Of a DNA stretch of 38,694 bases, positions 23,207 through 24,995 are shown in pieces. The translations under genes and the position numbers were made by a program. Within the stretch, counting starts at the first letter, position 1; each line of letters opens with the position of its first letter. A model generated the notes under the pieces. It was not told where the DNA came from, made no database searches, and saw only the letters and a list, made by a program, of their open reading frames with translations. Source of the DNA: a bacterium. GTDB lineage: Bacteria > Cyanobacteriota > Vampirovibrionia > Gastranaerophilales > Gastranaerophilaceae. The stretch is from the NCBI GenBank assembly GCA_017403285.1, contig JAFQOI010000109.1:1-38694 (forward strand), written 5' to 3'.

Positions 23207-23374
23207 ATGACATTAGCTAGTGTTTGGACAACTGTAGGAATAACATTTGGATTATTATTAATTGTAATTATGTTTGCAATTATAGTAATAATAATTCAAT
23301 CTATATTTAGAATTGGAGGTACAGATGAAAAATCAATATACAAAACAAGAAAACAGGATAATAAAAAAGACTGA
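23207..23374 (+). CDS. Single-pass membrane protein, 55 aa
   Basis: A long hydrophobic helix (about 5-35, VGITFGLLLIVIMFAIIVII) with a basic tail. ATG 23207 has GAGGGGG upstream; its 3' end overlaps the late regulator by 50 bases. Unknown function. Confidence 0.5.
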   Translation: MTLASVWTTVGITFGLLLIVIMFAIIVIIIQSIFRIGGTDEKSIYKTRKQDNKKD

Positions 23375-23816
23375 ATTGAAATTTGAAAAATTTTTAAATA
23401 GTTATGACTTCTTGATTGAAAAGCTAAATGATATACAAGAAACCAAGGGAATTGCAGAGCAACTTAATAAAGATACAACAATAGGATTTAGTACGAGTAA
23501 ACCATCAGGAAGTAAAATCGAAAAAACAATAGCAGAAGCTCAAGAAATTTCAGAAACATATAAAGATGAAATTACAACTATATTAAATAATAAAATAAAA
23601 TATACAAAGATAGCAACAACTATGGATTTTCCTTATGGAGAAATAATATTTTATAAATACATAAAAAATTATACTTGGGAAAAAGTTGGAGAAAAAATTG
23701 GATATGAAAGAGAAAGTGTGAACAAAAAGAAAAAAGAGGCGTTATTACGATTTTATAAAGCATCTTCGGAATTTTATAAAAACAATCACATTAAATCACA
23801 GAAAATCACAAAGTAA
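23325..23816 (+). CDS. Late transcription regulator (sigma-70 region 4-like, ArpU/RinA-type)
   Basis: The 163-residue protein ends with a helix-turn-helix of sigma region 4 type (about 114-150: FPYGEIIFYKYIKNYTWEKV, then GEKIGYERESVNKKKKEALLRFYK in parts), as in the ArpU, RinA and DUF1492 late regulators of Gram-positive phages. It is the last early gene, in the place of such regulators. ATG 23325 follows TGGAGG. Its last codons contain the AATCACA repeats that probably form its own target. Direct late activation is inferred. Confidence 0.75.
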   Translation: MKNQYTKQENRIIKKTELKFEKFLNSYDFLIEKLNDIQETKGIAEQLNKDTTIGFSTSKPSGSKIEKTIAEAQEISETYKDEITTILNNKIKYTKIATTMDFPYGEIIFYKYIKNYTWEKVGEKIGYERESVNKKKKEALLRFYKASSEFYKNNHIKSQKITK

Positions 23817-23882: not shown

Positions 23883-23922
23883 AGAAAGTTAATTGCAGAA
23901 ATGTAGTTAGCTTTCTTTTTTT
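23883..23922 (+). terminator. Strong terminator after the early operon / late promoter
   Basis: AGAAAGTTAATTGCA (23883-23897), a GAAA tetraloop, TGTAGTTAGCTTTCT (23902-23916): 15 pairs with several G-U, then T7. It is about 50 bases downstream of the start predicted for the promoter at 23823, so transcripts from it would end here unless terminator readthrough is promoted. Confidence 0.85.
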
Positions 23923-23956
23923 ATTGAAAATATTAAGAAAAAGAAATATCTTTTGC

Positions 23957-23998
23957 GGAGCTTTGTTATAGATTTATTTTATAGCGAGGTTCTATTTT
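23957..23998 (+). terminator. Second hairpin with T-rich tail
   Basis: GGAGCTTTGTTATA (near 23957-23970) pairs with TATAGCGAGGTTCT (23980-23993), mostly with G-U pairs, loop of 9, followed by ATTTTT. It may be a second terminator or the first helix of the structured RNA that follows. Confidence 0.5.
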
Positions 23999-24005
23999 TC
24001 TAATA

Positions 24006-24137
24006 TGTGTAGTGGCGGAATAGACACCAGTAAGGTGGTAAATAGTAGACGCTAGGTTAAAATACATCAACTTTCTGCAGGAAGTATGTAGCCGAGTAGA
24101 GATACTTACATATTGAGTGCAAATCTCAATCTACACA
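24006..24137 (+). ncRNA. tRNA-like RNA with extra hairpins (class II cloverleaf outline)
   Basis: The helices resemble a leucine-type tRNA. Acceptor TGTGTAG/CTACACA (24006-24012/24131-24137); T at 24013; D-stem GCG/CGC (24015-24017/24050-24052); variable arm AGTA-GAGA-TACT (24095-24106); T-stem TTGAG/CTCAA with loop TGCAAAT (24113-24129). Departures: the D-loop is 32 nt and holds a CACC/GGTG hairpin (24025-24037). The anticodon arm is replaced by a long arm GGTT, ACAT, ACTT with matching AAGT, ATGT, AGCC (24055-24093), whose loop is not a 7-nt anticodon loop. No CCA is encoded and the T-loop has G in place of the usual second T. It is a tRNA-derived or tRNA-mimicking RNA; function unknown. 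Confidence 0.55.
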
Positions 24138-24452
24138 AATATGCTTATTAATGATACTAGATAAATTAATATATATAGCTTATTTATTGAAATAAGCCTC
24201 CTTTCTTAAAATTTATATATAGTTGCAAGGTACTGGTAAGCTGATTCTAGTTAAGGCTGTTATAAATAGTATGTAGGGTATATAAAAAATAAATTGCAGT
24301 TTGGCAAAAGTAGGTTGATATGAAGTATTGGAAAGTAATAAAAGCTGAAGTTAAGCCAAATAGTTCTAGGGTGCAGAATTTATTAGCCTTGTGATTATAC
24401 AGGGGTATATCTTACATAGTGTTTATAAAAATAAAGAAAGAGGTGACCATAT
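24138..24452 (+). ncRNA. Non-coding structured leader before terS
   Basis: No gene is present. GCTTATTT/AAATAAGC forms an 8-bp hairpin near 24178-24197. Farther on, AAGGCT (24253-24258) and ATAAAT (24262-24267) pair with AGCCTT (24385-24390) and ATTTAT (24378-24383). Nested inside, TTTGGC (24300-24305) pairs with GCCAAA (24355-24360). Nested long-range helices over about 140 bases suggest a large folded RNA. With the tRNA-like part, the whole block (about 450-600 nt) has the size and phage setting of large ornate RNAs such as ROOL or GOLLD; a true match is not shown. Confidence 0.5.
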
Positions 24453-24995
24453 ATGACAGAAGCACAAAAAAGATTTTGCGATGAATATTTAATTGACCTT
24501 AATGCAACTAGAGCATATAAGGTTGCTTATCCTAATTGTAAAAAAGATGAAACAGCAAGAGCTAACAGTAGCAGATTGATAGCAAATGCTAACATTCAAA
24601 CATATGTAGCAGAAAAAATTAAAGAACGAGAAAAAAGAACAGAAATAACACAAGATATGGTTTTAAATGAACTTGCTAAAATAGCGTTTTTAGATATAAG
24701 AAAAATTTATAATGAAACTGGAGGATTAAAAAATATACAAGATATAGATGATTCGACAGCAGGAGCAATTACTTCTATAGAATCAGTTGAAGAATTTGAT
24801 GGATATGGAGAAGATAGGGAACAAATAGGATATAACAAAAAAATTAAAATGTTAGATAAAACTAAAGCACTTGAACTGATAGGAAGACATTTAGGAATGT
24901 TTAAAGATAAAGTTGAAGTAGATGTAAAAGAAAAACAAGAAAAGAAAAATACTATTACAGATATTTTCTCTCAAATGAAAGAAGTTGATGAGTAA
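24453..24995 (+). CDS. terS: Terminase small subunit (Terminase_2)
   Basis: The 180-residue protein matches the Terminase_2 family: TEAQKRFCDEYLIDLNATRA with AYKVAYP, an HTH-like DNA-binding part, and a C-terminal ALELIGRHLGMFKDK segment. It recognises phage DNA and feeds it to TerL. AAAGAGGTGA precedes the ATG; the stop overlaps the terL start (TAATG). Confidence 0.92.
   Translation: MTEAQKRFCDEYLIDLNATRAYKVAYPNCKKDETARANSSRLIANANIQTYVAEKIKEREKRTEITQDMVLNELAKIAFLDIRKIYNETGGLKNIQDIDDSTAGAITSIESVEEFDGYGEDREQIGYNKKIKMLDKTKALELIGRHLGMFKDKVEVDVKEKQEKKNTITDIFSQMKEVDE

Follow-up and report, generated by a model that had tools for sequence, protein, structure and literature searches.

What is a transfer RNA (tRNA)-shaped RNA without an anticodon arm doing in front of terS, the terminase small subunit gene, in a cyanobacterial prophage? 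The question arises in a 38,694-nucleotide (nt) stretch of DNA from a member of the Gastranaerophilaceae (GenBank assembly GCA_017403285.1, contig JAFQOI010000109.1; hereafter the window), where the prophage carries integrase and repressor genes. The RNA occupies exactly 24006-24137 of the forward strand, in a non-coding gap of 636 nt that separates terS from a late activator gene. An earlier note, made from the sequence alone, had drawn a leucine-type cloverleaf here. Our findings show that it is no one-off but belongs to a large, hypervariable family, and suggest, with a confidence that we would put at about even, that the window RNA is a member of a phage-encoded, non-decoding, tRNA-derived family that acts as a natural tRNA scaffold.

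The cloverleaf can be drawn letter for letter. Both the inserted D-loop hairpin (CACC/GGTG, 24025-24037) and the long multi-helix arm lacking a 7-nt loop, from which the note had concluded that the RNA does not decode, are present:

24006-24012 (+): 5' strand of the acceptor stem, TGTGTAG, forming 7 of 7 pairs with 24131-24137
24013-24023 (+): TG linker, 5' strand of the D-stem (GCG, 24015-24017) and first half of the D-loop, GAATAG, up to G18; near-invariant among relatives
24024-24044 (+): 21-nt D-loop insert ACACCAGTAAGGTGGTAAATA, exactly between G18 and G19; a hairpin, then GTAAATA
24025-24028 with 24034-24037 (+): hairpin of the D-loop insert, CACC/GGTG
24045-24052 (+): second half of the D-loop, GTAGA, and 3' strand of the D-stem (CGC, 24050-24052); supported by covariation
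24053-24093 (+): three-helix payload arm in place of the anticodon arm, with loop TGCA and no 7-nt loop
24055-24057 with 24091-24093 (+): payload arm helix 1, GGT/GCC
24063-24067 with 24086-24090 (+): payload arm helix 2, TACAT/ATGTA
24070-24075 with 24080-24085 (+): payload arm helix 3, ACTTTC/GGAAGT
24094-24111 (+): variable stem GTA (24096-24098)/TAC (24107-24109) with 8-nt loop GAGATACT, then an AT linker; drawn by homology
24112-24130 (+): T-arm with a 6-base-pair (bp) stem, ATTGAG (24112-24117)/CTCAAT (24125-24130), and loop TGCAAAT, which has G at position 55
24131-24137 (+): 3' strand of the acceptor stem, CTACACA, with no CCA after it

The earlier drawing thus stands in outline, with two stems corrected: the T-stem has 6 bp rather than 5, so that acceptor and T-stem together make 13 bp, and the variable stem is redrawn from homologues as GTA/TAC with its 8-nt loop. 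The minimum-energy fold of 24006-24137 reproduces the acceptor, D-stem, T-stem and insert helices, and its energy lies mildly below that of shuffled sequences (z -2.0; 7 of 200 shuffles equally stable). With z only -2, single-sequence folding was dropped as proof of structure, and the tRNA frame is established by comparison.

The same frame lies upstream of terS relatives in IMG/VR (L003, L013, L021, L039, L054 and L068), and from these a search motif was read, GTGGYGGAATAGACA-hairpin-TGGTRAA. Scans with this D-arm motif yielded 69 matching stretches from IMG/VR and 51 from GTDB genomes, the majority from uncultured Clostridia and Bacilli. A T-arm with loop TGCAAAT, which was no part of the search pattern, followed 120 of 130 D-arm matches; some of the remaining 10 were coding DNA or were cut by contig ends, and L258, L303 and L310 were rejected as chance matches because the T-arm is absent. 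Most of the matches listed in a second scan of IMG/VR, with a T-arm-only motif, have a normal D-arm, GTGGCGGAATAGGTAGACGC, with 24 to ~200 nt where the anticodon arm would be. The pattern scans together gave at least 181 non-redundant relatives, 90 with a D-loop insert and at least 91 with a normal D-loop (the latter from the matches listed), and this set of 181 underlies the cluster, anticodon-arm and neighbourhood counts below. Because insert-free relatives show a normal D-arm, mostly reading GGAATAGGTAGACGC, the window's D insert can be placed exactly between G18 and G19. Family RNAs are ~83-330 nt long, and their hallmarks are the D-arm TGGYGGAATAGGTAGACRC, a 6-bp T-stem, the T-loop TGCAAAT, a YAT linker, and the lack of an anticodon loop and of CCA. 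The window RNA likewise has a Leu-type D-arm, a 6-bp T-stem, the TGCAAAT loop and a YAT linker, and no anticodon arm.

The family surfaces only through the motif or the RNA ends: the whole 633-nt leader gave no blastn match against phages. A single prototype core query gave no match against 20,395 E. coli records. A strict T-arm motif was found in 0 of 289 genomes of the bacterium's own class and in 0 of 148 other genomes in the class of genome G329, which are floor values as the strict motif misses the window's own variant; with that limit, its absence from the sampled genomes disfavours a housekeeping RNA of the host chromosome. T-loop motif matches elsewhere in the window's own genome seem to be coding DNA (threonine synthase- and fmt-like) and were set aside.

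Is the frame maintained? Among 102 distinct elements, which have 54 distinct acceptors, the acceptor was fully paired in 81 and paired at six or more of its seven positions in 98, and the 6-bp T-stem was fully paired (6/6) in 100; random mates are fully paired in about 10% (acceptor) and 17% (T-stem) of cases. The covariation check that the earlier note had proposed was made on trimmed cores (D insert and insert arm removed) of 24 distinct relatives. In these, 99.0% of cells pair and 83 changes are two-sided; shuffles give 79.9% and 24, and 0 of 500 reach the real value. The two-sided changes fall in 12 of the 16 frame pairs, in the acceptor, D-stem (C-G to T-A) and T-stem, and sliding the pairing partners abolishes the signal. 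Kinship among the relatives raises such counts; yet an unstructured RNA would hardly show 54 distinct acceptors with as many as four pair types at one position. Within the insert subclass the first D-insert hairpin covaries too (position 3: TA 34, CG 26, AT 20, GC 6), and a second D-insert hairpin, absent from the window, is usual.

A canonical anticodon arm was found in 1 of the 181 members, versus 5 of 181 shuffled inserts, CCA is encoded after 0 of the 102 acceptors, and the discriminator base is not conserved among insert members (A 36, T 32, C 17, G 5). Because the frame helices covary while the anticodon arm and encoded CCA are missing, the frame is under selection, though not as a decoding tRNA. 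The window RNA itself lacks the 5-bp anticodon stem and 7-nt loop of a functional tRNA; its acceptor has 7 bp, but its 6-bp T-stem and TGCAAAT loop stand where a functional tRNA has a 5-bp stem and TTCRANT. As for the searches that the note had suggested, ARAGORN found neither a tRNA nor a transfer-messenger RNA (tmRNA) in the window, and Rfam 15 gave no match there, with chance matches only at permissive cut-offs; a tmRNA was rejected on these negatives. Bacterial and phage tRNA-Leu share with the family a class II frame, a 3-bp D-stem with a GGAATAGGTAGAC arm, the 7-bp acceptor and a T-arm, whereas the family RNA has no anticodon arm, a 6-bp T-stem, the TGCAAAT loop, a variable discriminator, no encoded CCA and hypervariable inserts. 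Phage D6E carries a likely relative with the canonical T-loop TTCGAAT (L455, 1500-1672), a possible link of the family to tRNA-Leu ancestry.

Mere decay of a tRNA gene, a doubt that the earlier note had itself raised, would account for the Leu-like frame and the negative ARAGORN result. We find it scarcely credible, since compensatory changes keep the frame, the pairing constraint has not been lost, and the relatives too are without an anticodon arm, with non-tRNA hallmarks common to hosts and phage families. It is also highly improbable that this is a tRNA-Leu gene with removable, intron-like inserts that matures into a decoding tRNA: the D insert does lie exactly between G18 and G19, and its removal yields the D-arm of insert-free relatives, but relatives without a D insert likewise lack the anticodon stem-loop.

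The 181 members fall into 139 payload clusters, and the 90 with D inserts into 45 D-insert clusters. Members of the largest D-insert cluster, 25 in number, carry payloads from 17 different clusters, and payload cluster 0 is found beside D inserts from five clusters; these combinations show that payloads are exchanged as modules. The window's payload class recurs beside different D inserts (L255, L309, L245) and with a normal D-loop (L456, L457). Compensatory changes are found in its helices (GG/CC, GC/GC, GA/TC; TACAT/ATGTA to TGATC/GATCA), and its variable stem is paired in six of six members (GTA/TAC, GAC/GTC, GCC/GGC, GCC/GGT, GGA/TCC, GAT/ATC), with a loop of approximately RAGAWACW. The payloads of phage B2 and L344 are 78% identical over 147 nt, yet their acceptor and T-stem ends differ.

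The main rival to a payload scaffold is a decoy role of the frame, in which the RNA sequesters a host enzyme that acts on tRNA, or a defence nuclease that targets tRNA, and its variable parts merely evade recognition. A tRNA frame with a Leu-type D-arm, a tRNA-array context and a frame that stays constant while the middle drifts all fit such a role, but we consider it unlikely: the payload structures are kept by compensatory changes and swapped as modules, beyond the needs of a neutral spacer, and there is no anticodon loop as bait for anticodon nucleases. In addition, the G at position 55 of the T-loop takes away the usual pseudouridine site.

Some inserts hold further tRNA-like parts. A tRNA-Lys (anticodon TTT) is nested within the payload of a family member at ~4012 in L401, and nested T-arm-like hairpins (GGTTCGAATCC) lie within inserts in L207, L257, L307, L210, L266, L283 and L302. 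In the first three of these the nested hairpin apparently has its own acceptor-like stem, a tRNA-like unit within a tRNA-like unit.

Which phages carry the family? It is present in the DNA of many phages and prophages of mainly Gram-positive bacteria and is almost never annotated. Among known phages it occurs in SPP1 (X89721, with genes 9 and 11 on either side; a paper that re-annotates SPP1 mentions no tRNA), phi3T and Goe27, in the L. plantarum phages Sha1, 8014-B2, Iacchus, phiJL-1 and Lenus, in Listeria phages from temperate PSA through the 135-kb type, and in Lacticaseibacillus, Enterococcus, Leuconostoc, Weissella and Aerococcus phages. Six phages of the L. plantarum type, several of them in unrelated genera, share a 30-nt 3' end at 96% and a 5' end at 86% identity; the identity stops at the RNA ends, as the flanks are at chance level (38% and 29%), and the inserts differ. 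Listeria, Lacticaseibacillus and Enterococcus phages each have their own shared 3' end. End sequences are tied to the host in lactic and Listeria phages.

Upstream of family members the commonest neighbours are late activators; downstream they are terS, HNH or head genes, and these neighbours usually share the strand of the RNA. No universal protein partner was found within 2.5 kb of family members, which fits a free RNA that uses host factors. Of the 181 members, 56 have a canonical tRNA within 1 kb versus 27.7 expected, a twofold enrichment, always on the same strand. Mini tRNA-like units (acceptor and T-arm, no anticodon arm) lie beside members in SPP1 (L448, 3540-3590), phiJL-1 (L445, 2313-2375) and P1 (L442, 2470-2535); in phage P1 a single hairpin replaces the D-arm itself. 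The Rfam orphan RNAs skipping-rope and DUF3800-VIII occur near members in Goe27 (L324, 2574-2644) and phi3T (L449, 3363-3428).

The window RNA lies, as the note had said, 5' of terS, among the following features:

23313-23816 (+): late transcriptional activator gene, 5' of the tRNA-shaped RNA (PHROG 36/248, E 1.6e-9)
23883-23998 (+): two terminator-like hairpins (23883-23916 and 23957-23993), each followed by a T run, just 5' of the tRNA-shaped RNA
24148-24258 (+): two-hairpin kissing-loop element, separate from the tRNA-like fold, with loops GATACTAGATA (24153-24163) and GATTCTAGTTAA (24243-24254)
24453-24995 (+): terS, 3' of the tRNA-shaped RNA (PF03592, E 3.6e-38)

This setting, between the late activator with its terminator-like hairpins and terS, would suit one of the roles that the earlier note had proposed, an RNase P/Z processing signal that cuts the leader off the late mRNA, and in Sha1 and D6E, too, a RinA-like gene precedes the family RNA. 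Such a late-leader role cannot be general, because much of the family does not adjoin terS: numerous relatives are found in tRNA arrays or head genes instead, as in P1, Iacchus and SPP1. A signal of this kind has no need of hypervariable structured inserts, and we regard it as quite unlikely.

The two loops of the kissing-loop element are complementary (ACTAGA/TCTAGT). The element also occurs in L008, L021, L252, L280, L293 and L315, where the stems vary and the loops GATACTAGATA and ATTCTAGTTA are constant. A long inverted pair, TATAAA-TAG-TATGTA with TACATA-GTG-TTTATA (24261-24275 with 24406-24427), lies just 5' of the next gene; it recurs in L002, L005, L007, L008, L021 and L039, with the internal loop TAG/GTG kept and a different stem in L021, and is possibly a leader or antitermination signal. 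The tRNA-like unit, the kissing hairpins and the inverted pair might together form one composite late-leader RNA, as the kissing element stands 3' of the tRNA-like unit in the window, L021, L252, L315 and others. This seems very unlikely, however, given that the kissing element is found in only a handful of relatives and, in L008, with no family member detected beside it.

How would a tRNA scaffold work? The near-constant Leu-type frame (acceptor, D-arm, 6-bp T-stem and TGCAAAT loop) would fold the RNA, presumably shield it and permit tRNA-like processing, while the anticodon-arm position, and in one subclass the D-loop between G18 and G19, would bear exchangeable structured payloads. The RNA may be co-transcribed with late genes or tRNA arrays and trimmed by host tRNA enzymes, and the payloads may bind targets of the host or a competitor. 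An anti-defence or takeover RNA is probably the likeliest use of such payload diversity. Three results weigh against the scaffold reading: no payload has a match in Rfam; tRNA-like aminoacylation is unsupported, because the discriminator is not conserved; and host-linked ends are not universal, as B. subtilis phages have no common acceptor and Bacillus phages no common 3' end.

Several known RNAs resemble the family in part. In the engineered tRNA scaffold for recombinant RNA, cargo is set in the anticodon arm of a tRNA frame; the family differs in being natural and in using the D-loop as well in one subclass. YrlA, a bacterial Y RNA with a tRNA-like module that works with the Ro60/TROVE protein, also mimics tRNA without decoding, whereas in the family the acceptor closes the whole RNA, with no Rfam match; no TROVE gene (PF05731) was found in the window's own genome, a bin 96.67% complete, so that this absence is not absolute. 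Other tRNA-like RNAs exist, but to our knowledge none of them pairs a phage-wide tRNA frame with modular cargo that is hypervariable, a combination apparently not described before. No description of the family was found in a literature search that left out subscription papers and most preprints, so an earlier account may exist. GOLLD and ROOL, ornate phage and prophage RNAs of 600-800 nt that form many-copy cages (PMC12286853), are likewise non-coding RNAs that lie near tRNA islands and have no known function; the family RNAs are shorter and tRNA-framed, and GOLLD/ROOL models were negative in the window and its relatives. The CBASS-activating phage RNA cabRNA, transcribed from terS-terL coding DNA (PMC10686824), is also a structured RNA of the terminase region. 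Identity with it was rejected, as the location differs and no tRNA frame is described for cabRNA.

These RNAs form a structured class that was missed in well-studied phages (SPP1, phi3T, and those of Listeria, Lactobacillus and Enterococcus), probably owing to the hypervariable middle. Hypervariability of this kind usually signals conflict with a host or rival. We tentatively suggest that Gram-positive phages share a class of RNAs in which a tRNA frame presents diverse, exchangeable inserts that serve as effectors or aptamers against host defence or rival phages; this would be a natural display system shaped by diversifying selection. Laboratory B. subtilis infected with SPP1 or phi3T offers direct experimental access. 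If the scaffold reading is true, tRNA serves in nature as a frame on which interchangeable RNA modules are displayed.
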